From positions 1-33,280 of IMG/VR virus record IMGVR_UViG_3300041809_001455: a stretch of DNA of 33,280 nucleotides. One strand, written 5' to 3'. The notes under the pieces were generated by a model. It was not told where the DNA came from and did no database searches. It was given only the letters and a program-made list of their open reading frames with translations. The translations under genes and the position numbers were made by a program. This document shows positions 407-33,280 of the stretch, piece by piece. Origin of the DNA: a virus. How positions within the stretch are numbered: position 1 is the stretch's first letter; every line of letters starts with the position of its first letter.

Positions 407-574
407 ATGATGAATATCGCACAAGTTTTAGCATTATGTATTTTTTCGTTTATTATGGGGCAATTTTTTGGTATAGCAATTATTGCGTTTTTCATCGGCG
501 CAACGCGGGGGCCGGAAGAAGAGCAGGAAGTCGCCGAGCTGCCCGATAATGTAACCCCATTGAGGAGAGAATAA
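407..574 (+). CDS. small single-pass membrane protein, 55 aa
   Basis: The reading frame starts with two consecutive ATGs (407 and 410) behind AAGAAGAG. The first 33 residues contain a strongly hydrophobic segment rich in Ile, Phe and Ala with few charges, predicted to span the membrane. An acidic segment (PEEEQEVAEL) and a short tail follow. The stop at 572-574 directly abuts the ATG of the HTH gene at 575, so the two are probably co-translated. Function is unknown; small inner-membrane proteins in phage early operons are often superinfection-exclusion or lysis-timing factors, but nothing here shows which. Confidence 0.6.
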   Translation: MMNIAQVLALCIFSFIMGQFFGIAIIAFFIGATRGPEEEQEVAELPDNVTPLRRE

Positions 575-838
575 ATGAATGACGAACGACTAGAAATTTC
601 AACGCAAGAAAGACTTATTGCGTGGCGGATTAGGCAGGGCTTATCACAAGCCTCCGCCGCTATAGTTTTCCGTCGCTGTCGCAGAATGTATCAGTATCTT
701 GAGTCGGGACAGCATCTTGGAGGAGTTGTCGGGAAAAATAAATTGCCTCCGGACATCGACGATCTTGCTCGTCTTTACGAACTAACTCATAAAAAGCGCA
801 CAAAGAAAAATGCGAAAAAAAGTGCGGCGACGGCTTAA
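575..838 (+). CDS. helix-turn-helix (XRE/Cro-like) DNA-binding protein, 87 aa
   Basis: Residues 11-50 follow the XRE/Cro layout: a first helix (QERLIAWRIRQG), the turn-region signature LSQASAAIVF, then a recognition-helix stretch and a YLESGQ-type segment usual at the end of the third helix. The C terminus is Lys-rich (KKRTKKNAKKS), suitable for nonspecific DNA contact. It starts right after the membrane-protein gene with a GGAGAG ribosome site inside that gene's end. The likely role is transcription regulator of the early region. It is the only HTH candidate I see, so it is also the best candidate to bind the palindromes described elsewhere in this answer (inference). Confidence 0.65.
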   Translation: MNDERLEISTQERLIAWRIRQGLSQASAAIVFRRCRRMYQYLESGQHLGGVVGKNKLPPDIDDLARLYELTHKKRTKKNAKKSAATA

Positions 839-977: not shown

Positions 978-1421
978 CTACGGTTGATATTTTTTCAATG
1001 GAATTTGAAGTTCAGAAACGGCCATTCTGCAATCTTCCAAGGAACGAATCACAAAATGCGGAATGCCAACTCGGTCTAAATCTGAAATAAAATCTTTCTG
1101 ATTTTGAGATAAACTTCCTTCTTCGCTTTTAATCTCGAAATAAGCCGTTCGACATGGAGACCAGTGTAAAATCAAGTCTAAAACGCCGGATCGCGCCCCA
1201 AGCTTTACAAGCTTATTCCACATAATCGCGGCGCGCGGAACAGCGTGGCCTCGAATAAAAACAACCTCGCTTCCACCATCGAATCCGTTGGGTATATGAT
1301 AAACAATCCCATCAATATTCGAGAAAAGCCAACTAAAACAAAGGACATGAATCGGGTCTTCGAGCTTGCGCGGTTTTGCGCGCATCGTCTTAGATGCTGA
1401 TAGTGATTTTTTCCAGCGCAT
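978..1421 (-). CDS. VRR-NUC domain nuclease, 147 aa
   Basis: The product carries the signature of small phage VRR-NUC endonucleases (PD-(D/E)XK superfamily): GARSGVLDL with Asp at residue 82, FEIKSEEG with Glu 96 and Lys 98, then SLSQNQKDF with Gln 107. These correspond to the D, ExK and Q positions of the nuclease core. The family cuts or trims branched or ssDNA-containing structures during recombination and replication. The frame is open further to a TTG at 1463, but a TATAAT box at 1453-1458 on this strand would put the transcript start downstream of that TTG, so I prefer the ATG at 1421, which follows AAAAAGGGG closely. It is the only - strand gene within the early + block. Confidence 0.8.
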   Translation of the reverse strand: MRWKKSLSASKTMRAKPRKLEDPIHVLCFSWLFSNIDGIVYHIPNGFDGGSEVVFIRGHAVPRAAIMWNKLVKLGARSGVLDLILHWSPCRTAYFEIKSEEGSLSQNQKDFISDLDRVGIPHFVIRSLEDCRMAVSELQIPLKKYQP

Positions 1422-1449
1422 CCCCTTTTTATAGCACAAAACTTTTCCC

Positions 1450-1478
1450 TTGATTATATGCAATCATTGCGTTATATG
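1450..1478 (+). promoter_or_regulatory. candidate sigma70-type promoter for the + operon at 1511
   Basis: TTGATT (1450-1455) and TATATG (1473-1478) are separated by 17 bp, in the divergent gap between the VRR-NUC gene and the 1511 gene. Transcription would begin near 1485, about 25 bases before the ATG. Confidence 0.45.
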
Positions 1479-1481
1479 AAA
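1453..1481 (-). promoter_or_regulatory. candidate promoter for VRR-NUC gene, overlapping the opposite promoter
   Basis: On the - strand a perfect TATAAT occupies 1458-1453, with a weak TTTCAT at 1481-1476 and a 17-bp spacer. A TG lies two bases ahead of the -10 box (TGCATATAAT). It overlaps the + promoter almost completely, so the two are likely to exclude each other. Confidence 0.45.
1460..1470. promoter_or_regulatory. 11-bp palindrome GCAA-TCA-TTGC, candidate operator
   Basis: GCAATCATTGC is a perfect palindrome about a central C. It lies inside the spacers of both divergent candidate promoters, an ideal place for a dimeric repressor. The same half-sites with the same 3-bp spacing recur in the promoter at 32891-32920. 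Confidence 0.5.
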
Positions 1482-1510
1482 AATACCTTTTGACATGATT
1501 CGTGGACAAG

Positions 1511-1915
1511 ATGTTCTTAGACAAAAATAAAGTTTTCATTCTTCCGTGCGACGGCACGCCCGAGGGATACGACGAACCCATGACGGAGCCGCGCACTGGA
1601 TATTTTGCCGTGAAGTTTGGCAAGGGCCAGCTTGAGCGTGCGTTGTTTGTTTTCCGCGCCCCGGCATATTGGCAGATCAATCTTGACGGCTTTCTCGTTG
1701 CTCCGGCCTCGTCCGATTGGCGTGAAGCTTTCGGAGACATTTATAAAACAGCTCAAAAATTCGGCGGCATTCTTCTTGGTCGAGTTATCTCGGTCGATCA
1801 ATATGTCCGCCTCGTCAAAGCTCGCGCAGCCGACAAAGAACGGGGGATCGACCTGTCGGGCCGAGTGGATTTAAACACGGTCGAAATCCCCTCTTTTCAG
1901 AGTAAGGAAAAATGA
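1511..1915 (+). CDS. hypothetical phage protein, 134 aa
   Basis: I chose the ATG at 1511; an in-frame GTG at 1502 is possible and neither has a clear ribosome site. The protein is soluble, mixed alpha/beta in appearance (for example GYFAVKFGKGQLERALFVF and DWREAFGDIYKTAQKFG), with no membrane segment. I do not recognise a family. Its stop overlaps the ATG of the coiled-coil gene (ATGATG at 1912), so they form a translational pair. It is the first gene after the candidate divergent promoter at 1450-1478. Confidence 0.65.
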   Translation: MFLDKNKVFILPCDGTPEGYDEPMTEPRTGYFAVKFGKGQLERALFVFRAPAYWQINLDGFLVAPASSDWREAFGDIYKTAQKFGGILLGRVISVDQYVRLVKARAADKERGIDLSGRVDLNTVEIPSFQSKEK

Positions 1916-4664: not shown

Positions 4665-5387
4665 ATGAGTAAGATTGTTCTGTCTCTGGAAACCCTCGAA
4701 AAACTGAAACGCTTCGCTTCGACCGAGGAGACGCGATATTATCTAAACGGGCTGTACTTTCATTATCGAGCCGACCGCAAGGACTTCGTGATTATGGCAA
4801 CTAACGGTCACTATGCCGTTGTGTTCAAAAGCGCACGTCCGTGGGATGGTGAGGCGTTCGAAAGCTTCATTCTTCCAAGCAGCGATATATTAGGAAGCAA
4901 ATCGTTTGTGGACTCGGAGTATTCCGAGCACGAGGACGAATACGGTTACTCGTATTTTGAGAAAAACAATCCACTTGTTCATGTCGCCATCGACACGGAG
5001 ACAAAGCGCATTGCGTTTCTGAATGCCGATATAAAACCCATCGGAGCAATCCCCGCAGATCAAATCCTTTCCGAAGGGTTGTCCAAAAAATTCACGCCGA
5101 TTGACGGGACATACCCAGAATATGAGAGAACGTTCCCGAAGCCCGAAGACCTGACCGGATGCGAGACCGTCGCGTTCAATGTTAAATATCTCGCCGACAT
5201 TGTGGGTATCTCTTCCACAGATCATGCGTCGTTTTTCATCAACAAAGACAACAACGCCCCCTCGATTGCGTTCATCCAAGAGCCGGACAACGATGAATAT
5301 GTTTTTCTCCTGATGCCCGTCGTTCTGGCGCGAGGGAAAAGCACGGACAAATATCCCGAATGGATTGTCAGAAAGGAGAAGATGTAA
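4665..5387 (+). CDS. DNA polymerase III beta-clamp-like (sliding clamp) protein, 240 aa
   Basis: Several beta-clamp landmarks are visible in order: TRYYLNGLYFHY with ATNGHYAVVF (residues 23-53), equivalent to the cellular TRYYLNG...ATDGHRLA; IDGTYPEYERTFP (about 147-159), equivalent to the IDG-(F/Y)PDY-R strand; FNVKYLADIV, and a terminal VFLLMPV like the cellular YVLMP. At 240 residues it is much shorter than host DnaN (about 365), so it probably keeps only part of the three-domain ring or has shrunken domains. The likely role is a phage processivity factor, or a decoy that competes with the host clamp. A stop at 5385-5387 precedes the GapR-like gene by two bases. Confidence 0.8.
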   Translation: MSKIVLSLETLEKLKRFASTEETRYYLNGLYFHYRADRKDFVIMATNGHYAVVFKSARPWDGEAFESFILPSSDILGSKSFVDSEYSEHEDEYGYSYFEKNNPLVHVAIDTETKRIAFLNADIKPIGAIPADQILSEGLSKKFTPIDGTYPEYERTFPKPEDLTGCETVAFNVKYLADIVGISSTDHASFFINKDNNAPSIAFIQEPDNDEYVFLLMPVVLARGKSTDKYPEWIVRKEKM

Positions 5388-5389
5388 TC

Positions 5390-5653
5390 ATGGTCGAGGG
5401 TGTGGGTCACAACTCTGGCGGCGTATCCGGTGAACGTCTCCGCAGCCTGATTGGGCGGATTGAGAAGCTTGAAGAGGATAAAGCCGCCGTCAGCGAGGAC
5501 ATCAAAGAGGTCTACGCCGAGGCCAAGGGCACAGGATTCAACGTGCCGACAATTCGACAGATTGTTAAGCTCCGCAAGATGGAATTGGAGAAACGGCGCG
5601 AGAACGCGGAATTGTTGAGTTTATATCAGTCAGCTATCGGCATGGAGGAATAA
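5390..5653 (+). CDS. GapR/DUF2312-family DNA-binding protein, 87 aa
   Basis: After the GVGHNSGG leader the protein is an alpha-helical DUF2312/GapR unit: LRSLIGRIEKLEEDKAAVSE, DIKEVYAEAKGTGFN, then TIRQIVKLRKMELEKRR. GapR is an alphaproteobacterial nucleoid protein that encircles overtwisted DNA ahead of replication and transcription and stimulates topoisomerases. I chose ATG 5390; an upstream in-frame ATG at 5360 lies inside the clamp gene and would add ten unrelated residues. The AAGGAG 11 bases upstream lies in the clamp gene's end, so the pair is coupled. It is the main clue to an alphaproteobacterial host. Confidence 0.85.
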   Translation: MVEGVGHNSGGVSGERLRSLIGRIEKLEEDKAAVSEDIKEVYAEAKGTGFNVPTIRQIVKLRKMELEKRRENAELLSLYQSAIGMEE

Positions 5654-27806: not shown

Positions 27807-28166
27807 CTATTGGAAGTTCGCAAAGAAAGCGTCGCCGGATGTTCCCGCAATACTCACCTGATCGGGAAGAACATATCCTGTTGCTGAAGAATTGCATCTG
27901 ACAGATTGGCCCGTAGAGAGCTTAATCGAAGCTCCGGTCGTCGCGTTTGCTTTGGGGCCGAAAAAAACATACATCGCGTTTCCGCTCGATCCGTTATTCT
28001 GAATCGTGCATCCGATACGATTAAGATTCTGCGCCTGAATGCTTTGAAATGTGGAGGTCGCCCCAATCGTTCCGGAGAGATTAAGGCTTGTCGTTGGCGC
28101 GGGGCCAGCAAAAGCAAGTGTTGCAGAAAAAAGAACGGCGACAAAAACGGAAAGGAAGAAGCGCAT
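27807..28166 (-). CDS. small secreted protein with signal peptide, 119 aa
   Basis: Residues 1-20 form a Sec signal (FFLSVFVAVLFSATLAFA, cleavage after AFA). The mature part, IGCTIQNNGSSGNAMYVFFGP to QVSIAGTSGDAFFANFQ, fits a pattern I recall in many phage genomes near head genes: a single compact beta domain with two conserved Cys (about residues 53 and 90). No role is known to me. GGAGCC precedes the ATG. It precedes the 594-aa secreted protein, which suggests a functional pair. Confidence 0.7.
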   Translation of the reverse strand: MRFFLSVFVAVLFSATLAFAGPAPTTSLNLSGTIGATSTFQSIQAQNLNRIGCTIQNNGSSGNAMYVFFGPKANATTGASIKLSTGQSVRCNSSATGYVLPDQVSIAGTSGDAFFANFQ

Positions 28167-30948: not shown

Positions 30949-32400
30949 TTATCTTGGCTTCAATCTTTTCGCTCTGTCGAGGAGGTCTTTCGATATTTTT
31001 AACGACACAAAGACAGGATATAGGCGGCGAAGAGCTTGCGTTGTCGCATCAACCTGATCGTCGTTCGCCCCAGCAGGGAAGACGGTCAATTCAGAAACAT
31101 AGTTTTTTACCCAAGCTGCAATATCGGGATGGGGAAGAAATACATTCCCCGCTTCCCAAAAACTTGTGACTGCGTGAGCACGAGCGAGCTTTGATCCGTC
31201 CGGCTCAATGGGGATAAGGCAGGGAACGTGAGCTTTTAAAACATCAATAACAGCAGGACCGTTTGCCTTGTCTTCAATGAGAATTTCTCGCGTAGACGGA
31301 AAAGCGTCACGCAAGGAAACGACTTCCTCCACCGTTTTTGTAAACGACATGCGGGCTCGGGTTTGTCCGAGAAGATAGCTGTTCGCCCCACTTTTTCCCC
31401 AAGCTTGCCCGACAACAAAATCCGTTCCATCTGTGTCTTTGAAGGTGCAATCCCATGAATTTATTATCTTGTCGAATTTCTTTGGAAGGTCTTTCGGCAA
31501 ATAATAATGGATTCCGGATTCTTTGAATACGTTGCCGCCCAACGGCTTCGGGCATTGCTGATAAAGAGCAGCCCAGAAATAATCGCTCGTTTCGCGTTTA
31601 AGTTCCCCTAACTGCGCCAACGAGTGAAGGTCTGGAACAAGCGCGCCAAGAGGAAGCGCGGGATTATAGCCAACCTCTCCGGGTTCATTGATCGCGGGGA
31701 AAAACAAAGTTTTAAGGCGAGATTCTCCCTTGTGAAGATCAATCACGCGCTGAGTTAAATCGTCCTCAGCCCACCGAGTCGCCATAATGAGCTGACCTGA
31801 AAATTCACTAAGGCGCGTTTTGAAAACGGATTGGTACCAAGACCAGATTCCCTCTTTTGTTACTTCGCTCAACGATTCTTCTGCGTTTTTTATGGGATCG
31901 TCGATAATTCCGATGGAAAGAGGAAAGCCCGTAAGTCCCGCGCCTATGCCCGCGCCTTTGTACGTTCCGCGTCCGGAGGGTGAATTAAATTCAGACGTTC
32001 TATTCACGTCATATTTATTTTTTTCTCTATTCGACGGAAAGAGTCGCCTGTGTTTGTCGCTTGCGATATTGCGGCGAACGTCTTGTGAGATTGATCCGGC
32101 GAGAAGATCGTTATAGCTCAAACCGCCGACGTGCCAGTCCGGAAATTTCCCGATTAGATAAGAAGCAAACTTTCGGCTGACTATCTCGGTTTTGCCGTGT
32201 TGAGGAGGAGCCGCAAGAATGAGAATGGGGCGTTTTCCGGCAATTACATCCTCAACAAAAACGTCGAGCGCGGAACATACCGACTCGCTGAATGCGCTGG
32301 TTTTATAATCTTTGTTCGTATACTGAATATATTTTGCAAGGCTTTTCCGCGCCGCTCGACGGGCAAGCAACTCTCTTGCCGCATCAGCTTTGCTTATCAT
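30949..32400 (-). CDS. terL: terminase large subunit, 483 aa
   Basis: The packaging motor has an ATPase with Walker A APPQHGKT (residues 64-71) and Walker B SIGIIDDP (162-169), and a coupling-type MATRWAEDDL around 206-215. The nuclease half has the acidic triad positions NSWDCTFKD (Asp 317), ILIEDKANGPAVI (Glu 376/Asp 377) and NDDQVDATTQAL (Asp 447/448). All expected motifs are intact. The ATG overlaps the small-subunit gene by 17 bases, and the ribosome site GAGGCG lies inside it. Confidence 0.92.
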   Translation of the reverse strand: MISKADAARELLARRAARKSLAKYIQYTNKDYKTSAFSESVCSALDVFVEDVIAGKRPILILAAPPQHGKTEIVSRKFASYLIGKFPDWHVGGLSYNDLLAGSISQDVRRNIASDKHRRLFPSNREKNKYDVNRTSEFNSPSGRGTYKGAGIGAGLTGFPLSIGIIDDPIKNAEESLSEVTKEGIWSWYQSVFKTRLSEFSGQLIMATRWAEDDLTQRVIDLHKGESRLKTLFFPAINEPGEVGYNPALPLGALVPDLHSLAQLGELKRETSDYFWAALYQQCPKPLGGNVFKESGIHYYLPKDLPKKFDKIINSWDCTFKDTDGTDFVVGQAWGKSGANSYLLGQTRARMSFTKTVEEVVSLRDAFPSTREILIEDKANGPAVIDVLKAHVPCLIPIEPDGSKLARAHAVTSFWEAGNVFLPHPDIAAWVKNYVSELTVFPAGANDDQVDATTQALRRLYPVFVSLKISKDLLDRAKRLKPR

Positions 32401-32818
32401 CTGATTTCGCCTCTTTTTTTACAACGGCGGCAAGATCAGCATCTGAAAGTTCTTCGGCGCTATCGACATCCTCTTTCGATTTTTCTCTGGTTGTCTGCAC
32501 AGGATAGCCCCACAAGCGGTCATAAAGAGCCTCGCGCTCGCCGCGCTTATCCTTGCCCGCGATTGTCCCCGCGAGATGCACAATCACCTGCGCGTACTCA
32601 ATCGGCATTTTTCCAAGGCGCGCCGTATCCGTTGCCATTTCGCGCAGCTCGTCGACCGTGCAATGCGTGCGATAATAATCGACGATGCGCTCCCATCGCG
32701 CACGGCCCTTAAGCGTTGCCCACGCCTCTTTTGCAACTGTATTCCCGGGCAAAAATAGCCCGTTCGAATCGCGTTGCGGCTTGCAAGGATCGGGGATTTT
32801 TGACTCTTCATCATTCAT
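32384..32818 (-). CDS. terminase small subunit, 144 aa
   Basis: It lies directly ahead of the large terminase with an overlap. The sequence PQRDSNGLFLPGNTVAKEAWATLKGR and the helical segments CTVDELREMATDTARLGKMPIEYAQVIVHLAGTIAGKDKRGEREALYDRLWG match small terminase (DNA recognition) proteins of this phage group. The C terminus is acidic. It is the first late gene, next to the divergent regulatory region 32819-32955, so packaging initiation may occur nearby. Confidence 0.8.
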   Translation of the reverse strand: MNDEESKIPDPCKPQRDSNGLFLPGNTVAKEAWATLKGRARWERIVDYYRTHCTVDELREMATDTARLGKMPIEYAQVIVHLAGTIAGKDKRGEREALYDRLWGYPVQTTREKSKEDVDSAEELSDADLAAVVKKEAKSDDKQS

Positions 32819-32834
32819 TTTCGGTTTTACCGCC

Positions 32835-32862
32835 GTTAACCTGTTGATACCGAAAGGTTAAC
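32835..32862 (-). promoter_or_regulatory. inverted repeat with a possible late-operon promoter
   Basis: GTTAACC (32835-32841) and GGTTAAC (32856-32862) are 7-bp inverted arms around 14 bases. On the - strand TTGAGC (32871-32866) and TATCAA (32849-32844), 16 bp apart, form a weak candidate promoter whose -10 box lies within the repeat. This would drive the terminase genes, with the repeat as an operator. Confidence 0.35.
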
Positions 32863-32890
32863 ACGGCTCAAAAAAAGCGCAAGTATCTAT

Positions 32891-32920
32891 TTGACAATCG
32901 CGCAACCGTTGCGCTATGGT
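32891..32920 (+). promoter_or_regulatory. candidate promoter for the pentapeptide-repeat gene with embedded operator
   Basis: A perfect TTGACA (32891-32896), 18-bp spacer and TATGGT (32915-32920) precede the gene by about 35 bases. The palindrome GCGCAA-CCG-TTGCGC (32900-32914) fills nearly the whole spacer, so a bound protein would block polymerase. Its core GCAA-N3-TTGC matches the site at 1460-1470. Confidence 0.65.
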
Positions 32921-32955
32921 GGTTTCAGAAATTAACCCGACCAACGGAGATCATC

Positions 32956-33280
32956 ATGATAAAATTCAACGTAGAAAAACGCTTCTCTGGCCAAACCGAA
33001 TTCACAGCCGAGATTGATTGCGATGAATCTGCCCCAAAATCTTGGAAACTTCGTCTCGCCGTTTTCTTCGCCATCAAGAATAAAATTAGTCTGACCTGCG
33101 CCGATCTGACCCGCGCCGATCTGACCTGCGCCAATCTGACCGACGCCGATCTGACCTGCGCCGATCTGACCCTCGCCAATCTGACCGACGCCGATCTGAC
33201 CTGCGCCGATCTGACCTGCGCCAATCTGACCGACGCCGATCTGACCTGCGCCAATCTGACCGACGCCGATCTGACCTGCG
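32956..33280 (+). CDS. pentapeptide-repeat protein, N-terminal part (3' end missing)
   Basis: The CGGAGA ribosome site precedes ATG 32956. The first 45 residues form a small leader (KFNVEKRFSGQTEFTAEID and LAVFFAIKNKISLTCADL) that I recall from phage pentapeptide proteins. From residue 46 the A(D/N)LTx five-residue repeat runs uninterrupted to the window edge: ADLTC, ANLTD and ADLTL variants. Pentapeptide repeats form a right-handed quadrilateral beta-helix that can mimic DNA; some protect gyrase from inhibitors or block it. No gyrase-contact specificity can be read here. It has its own promoter with operator and is the first + gene of the early convoy. Confidence 0.85.
   Translation, partial: MIKFNVEKRFSGQTEFTAEIDCDESAPKSWKLRLAVFFAIKNKISLTCADLTRADLTCANLTDADLTCADLTLANLTDADLTCADLTCANLTDADLTCANLTDADLTC
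33091..33280 (+). repeat. 15-bp coding tandem repeat (pentapeptide)
   Basis: From 33091 to the edge the 15-bp unit CTGACC-NNN-GCC-RAT repeats about 12 times with almost no variation outside codon three and the first base of codon five. Such uniformity is much higher than typical for old pentapeptide genes, suggesting recent expansion or continual recombination. The array is cut by the window edge. Confidence 0.92.

Follow-up and report, generated by a model that had tools for sequence, protein, structure and literature searches.

How does an uncultured tailed phage with two divergent intergenic regions, one near each end of its record, control the transcripts that leave them, and could the similar palindromes found in both regions be read by a single regulator? 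The phage is represented by the complete 33,280-base IMG/VR record IMGVR_UViG_3300041809_001455, which was analysed over its whole length and is called the window here. The minus strand encodes the large terminase, portal, major head protein, tail sheath, and tape measure, and the plus strand carries a DNA-metabolism block with a sliding-clamp-like protein, a GapR-family protein, a cold-shock protein, and a methyltransferase. An integrase was not seen among the window proteins that were examined. The gene map used for the analysis of gaps was made by hand from the open frames and has 12 gaps, two of which are divergent: the first, 1425-1510, has the VRR-NUC gene to its left and the gene for a 134-aa protein, followed by the DNA-metabolism block, to its right; the second, 32819-32956, has the probable small terminase gene and the structural block running leftward and the pentapeptide gene running rightward (Table 1). 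Profile searches (Pfam, PHROG, NCBIfam) gave no family match for the 134-aa protein, and none of its own for the small terminase.

Two products of the DNA-metabolism block can be described further. The frame at 5360-5653 encodes a phage GapR-like nucleoid protein (Pfam E 1.5e-28); since, among 14 control genomes, this family was matched only in Caulobacter, the homologue hints at an alphaproteobacterial host. The frame at 4665-5387 encodes a 240-aa protein that matches phage processivity factors (E 4e-12) and, weakly, the domains of the DNA polymerase III beta subunit (E 0.0004), and is possibly a short phage sliding clamp.

Table 1. Sites, predicted promoters, and genes around the two divergent regions of the window, with one repeat from other records
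Feature	Position	Strand	Basis or remark
Site 1, GCAATCATTGC, 5-bp arms round one base; candidate operator	1460..1470	.	sequence
Site 2, core, GCAACCGTTGC	32902..32912	.	sequence
Site 2, full, GCGCAACCGTTGCGC, 7-bp arms round one base; candidate operator	32900..32914	.	sequence
GCAATTATTGC, inside the 55-aa ORF 407-574; probably chance	476..486	.	motif scan
GCAAGTGTTGC, within a gene on the minus strand; probably chance	28114..28124	.	motif scan
Weak promoter TTGATT-17-TATATG, toward the 134-aa gene	1450..1478	+	predicted, 8/12 consensus match
Promoter TTTTCA-18-TATAAT, toward the VRR-NUC gene	1453..1482	-	predicted, 10/12 consensus match
Promoter TTGACA-18-TATGGT, toward the pentapeptide gene	32891..32920	+	predicted, 10/12 consensus match
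Inverted repeat GTTAACCT-N12-AGGTTAAC; separate candidate operator	32835..32862	.	8-bp arms
87-aa possible HTH protein; candidate regulator	575..838	+	weak HTH_31 and phrog_955 matches
VRR-NUC nuclease gene	978..1424	-	Pfam VRR_NUC E 3.3e-6, above cut-off
134-aa protein gene, opening the rightward DNA-metabolism block	1511..1915	+	open frame
Probable small terminase gene, starting the leftward structural block	32384..32818	-	directly before the large terminase
Pentapeptide-repeat gene, truncated at the end of the record	32956..33280	+	Pfam Pentapeptide E 1.6e-16
CTTAC..GTAAG inverted repeat in terminase relatives	L017 1669-1714, L031 1420, L033 5072, L048 5009, L052 1043-1088		

Each divergent gap holds one copy of GCAAN3TTGC, and no other gap contains it. 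The motif scan bore out the description given in an earlier note on this DNA, which had reported identical GCAA/TTGC half-sites with a 3-bp spacing at both sites, except that the arms are longer than the 4 bp then recognised: both sites read GCAAY-C-RTTGC around a 1-bp centre, and site 2 extends to GCGCAAC-C-GTTGCGC. The search of the genome for the motif that the note had proposed found the two reported sites to be the only intergenic copies and also revealed two further copies inside genes. The raw count in the window (4 copies versus 0.87 expected, a number reached in 1 of 100 shuffles) was therefore rejected as proof, half of the copies being genic. The narrower form GCAAYNRTTGC occurs three times, twice in intergenic DNA, which accounts for 3% of the window.

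The position of the palindromes relative to the promoters is constant in that both lie between the -35 and -10 elements of consensus matches, and the three promoters predicted at these sites are the best matches of the intergenic DNA. At site 1, the two opposed promoters overlap, as had been claimed, in such a way that each -35 element overlaps the opposite -10 element; the palindrome is central between the -10 elements at 1453-1458 and 1473-1478 and, consequently, a dimer bound there would be placed equivalently toward the two promoters. Site 2 does lie in the spacer of a predicted promoter with a perfect TTGACA that is directed toward the pentapeptide gene, but its region is not the promoter of that gene only, since the small terminase gene leaves it leftward.

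One explanation, to which we give close to an even chance on the basis of sequence, is that sites 1 and 2 form a phage operator pair of the ordinary kind, for one small dimeric regulator. Such a protein would bind in the spacer between -35 and -10 at both sites and would block RNA polymerase: at site 1, a single dimer would shut off the VRR-NUC gene together with the rightward DNA-metabolism block and, at site 2, a dimer would shut off the pentapeptide operon. The suggestion in the earlier note that a single dimeric repressor controls three transcripts is plausible as regards the promoter spacers and the similar layout found in other phages (see below), with the binding itself putative.

The main rival explanation is chance, that is, that the 4-bp arms shared by two short palindromes of promoter regions are a coincidence and that no protein recognises both; this we regard as an appreciable possibility, clearly short of even. 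The statistics depend on the freedom allowed. If any shared palindrome with 4-bp arms among all 12 gaps is accepted, P is 0.05-0.46, which favours chance; if only the two divergent gaps are considered, P lies between 0.003 (arms with at least 2 G/C) and 0.043 (any arms); and if the shared palindrome has to lie within promoter spacers, P is 0.0002 for promoters matching at least 9/12 of the consensus and 0.002 for those matching at least 8/12, which argues against chance. In this last test, which was devised after the sites had been seen and is the closest to what the earlier note described, promoter-like sites within gaps had their spacers randomised by simple single-base shuffles, with the hexamers kept. 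Chance is also favoured by the finding that a palindrome with 5-bp arms is expected in 52% of shuffles of the site 1 gap, by the 13/16 identity of the most similar 16-base stretches of the two regions, a value reached in 28 of 300 shuffles (about 9%), and by the two genic copies of the motif; the fact that two of the three GCAAYNRTTGC copies fall in the small intergenic fraction speaks against it. The arms of site 1, at 4-5 bp, are, moreover, short for an operator, and were counted against the operator reading. With P ranging from 0.0002 to 0.46, the chance statistics as a whole constitute moderate evidence.

Operators of the Cro/CI type in lambdoid and other temperate phages are short palindromes that overlap early promoters and are bound by a small dimeric HTH protein. 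The palindromes described here resemble them in being short and in lying in overlapping promoters, where a small dimeric HTH binder would be expected. They differ from them in that there is one copy per promoter region rather than a cluster, with arms of 4-7 bp, and in that neither a repressor nor an integrase has been identified in this phage, the regulator being putative. Binding within a promoter spacer is an established mode of repression, and one phage example is Arc of P22, which similarly occupies a site between -35 and -10, where its binding slows or blocks RNA polymerase (PMC7730913). Arc is a ribbon-helix-helix protein, and the binder here is only putative.

Another possibility is that site 1 is not an operator at all but the pseudo-symmetry of a bidirectional promoter, in which case the match at site 2 would be incidental. 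The central position of site 1 between the two -10 elements speaks for this explanation, bacterial bidirectional promoters are pseudo-symmetrical, and, as in those of E. coli, the DNA at site 1 is contested by two opposed promoters (PMC12825309). However, the transcription starts of the E. coli promoters are commonly 18, 10, or 23 bp apart (PMC12825309), whereas those at site 1, as predicted from the positions of the -10 elements, would be about 39 bp apart, with each -35 element overlapping the opposite -10 element. Moreover, symmetry of the -10 elements leaves unexplained both the G/C-containing arms and the presence of the same arms at site 2. We consider this explanation improbable.

If sites 1 and 2 are operators, an important question is which protein reads them. 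The earlier note had named the HTH protein encoded at 575-838 as the obvious candidate. This 87-aa ORF remains a candidate, and a weak one rather than an obvious one: its matches to HTH_31 (E 0.095, 13.5 bits against a cut-off of 27) and phrog_955 (E 0.01) are below threshold, there is no NCBIfam match, and, as an XRE/Cro-type HTH regulator, it lacks a significant match to an HTH family. A single-sequence structural model has three helices and is poor (pLDDT 56.8), a significant PDB match to it was not found, and the protein had neither a solved relative nor a sequence relative in these searches. We consider it rather unlikely that this protein regulates sites 1 and 2.

The place of the HTH gene in the genome offers one argument in its favour and bears on how such a regulator might itself be controlled. 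The record begins and ends within repeats, namely a 57-base repeat on the left (1-123) and the pentapeptide repeats on the right (32956-33280), and the only record with matching DNA, L006, likewise breaks in the pentapeptide repeats. These observations make a circular or terminally joined genome probable, in which a single repeat gene would span the two ends. The frames at both ends are open, yet they are out of phase when the ends are joined directly, so either repeat sequence is missing or the ends belong to two different genes; the frame on the left carries a 19-residue repeat distinct from the pentapeptide repeats. The pentapeptide gene may continue at 1-123. Were it continuous across the ends, the promoter at site 2 would drive a single operon that comprises the pentapeptide, 83-aa, 55-aa, and HTH genes and crosses the contig ends into 124-838, with the possible HTH protein as the product of its last gene. 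The HTH protein would then repress itself, and a Cro-like loop would result in which it represses its own operon and the early block.

Comparison with relatives gives little purchase on these sites. L006, which is 99.99% identical to the window over 8,262 bases and contains site 2 only, is a further assembly of this phage. In terminase relatives (at most 73% identity), the motif is absent from the intergenic DNA that precedes the terminase genes, and in records related via another early protein, it occurs almost only inside genes. Conservation among these two sets of relatives was rejected as support because nearly all of the copies are in coding DNA. Searches of viral contigs detected no relatives of the HTH gene or of the 134-aa gene and, for the small terminase, only this same phage; the absence of the element from phages without the presumed regulator is no refutation.

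Similar layouts do occur in phages that are unrelated to that of the window. In L124 (IMGVR_UViG_3300047160_035982), five palindromes of the GCAAYYGTTGC type (on either strand) lie within 2.2 kb, and there are none elsewhere in the 64 kb. These GCGCAACTGTTGCG-type copies, at L124 1871-4106 (corresponding to 44956-47191 of that record), are in promoter spacers, as in TTGACAttGCGCAACTGTTGCGTATAAT, and one of them immediately precedes an integrase-like gene. Two such sites are present in L119 and one in L217; these two records, which represent different phages, both contain the exact site 1 sequence in promoter-like spacers. These examples suggest that such palindromes are repeated promoter elements in phages, without implying that the same protein reads them.

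How far the sequence of the half-site matters is another question. When viral contigs were scanned for TTGACA-N3-6-GCAAN3TTGC, 5 of 110 matches were intergenic, compared with 8 of 108 for a control half-site, among the matches listed; within these, there was no excess of GCAA over the control in TTGACA spacers, which was counted against the operator reading. Since the control half-site likewise gave promoter-like matches in viral contigs, operators of arbitrary sequence are probably common in promoter spacers. Annotated phages queried with the promoters gave mostly partial matches and a single full-length one, in Salmonella phage SSBI34 (E 0.2), and a literature search on the motif found nothing. 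That GCAAYNRTTGC between TTGACA and -10 constitutes a recurrent class of operators in unrelated environmental phages (the window phage, L124, L119, and L217), recognised by an undescribed family of regulators, is an improbable idea in our estimation.

The least probable of the explanations, also raised in the earlier note, is that a host regulator binds the sites and is exploited by the phage or subjects the phage to its control: the exact sharing of GCAATCATTGC between L119 and L217 and the seeming lack of a clear repressor in the window phage are in its favour, but the 143 and 48 genomes searched gave it no support, with TTGACA-spaced matches that were few and overlapped called genes apart from one unclear case in L350, and with no match to the 19-base site pattern in the 48 genomes, which amounts to a weak test.

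If sites 1 and 2 are indeed an operator pair, this little-known environmental phage would have three transcripts timed by one small regulator, whose targets would be readable from the sequence. Possibly more useful is the existence of near-identical sites in the promoters of unrelated phages, one of them with five copies, which constitute a set for finding the regulator.

Two other inverted repeats ahead of terminase genes were observed. In several of the terminase relatives, a CTTAC..GTAAG repeat (e.g., CTTACTGTAATGTAAG) is conserved ahead of these genes, and it is absent from the window. In the window, the gap that contains site 2 also contains the inverted repeat GTTAACCT-N12-AGGTTAAC, which was missed in the earlier note. 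It occurs once in the window, is located 16 bp before the start codon of the small terminase gene, overlaps the only leftward promoter match of the gap, a weak one (8/12), and, as RNA, is not unusual in its stability. A repeat of this kind with 8-bp arms is expected in this gap in 3% of shuffles, and it is a stronger palindrome than sites 1 and 2; if the late block has an operator of its own, this repeat is the better candidate.
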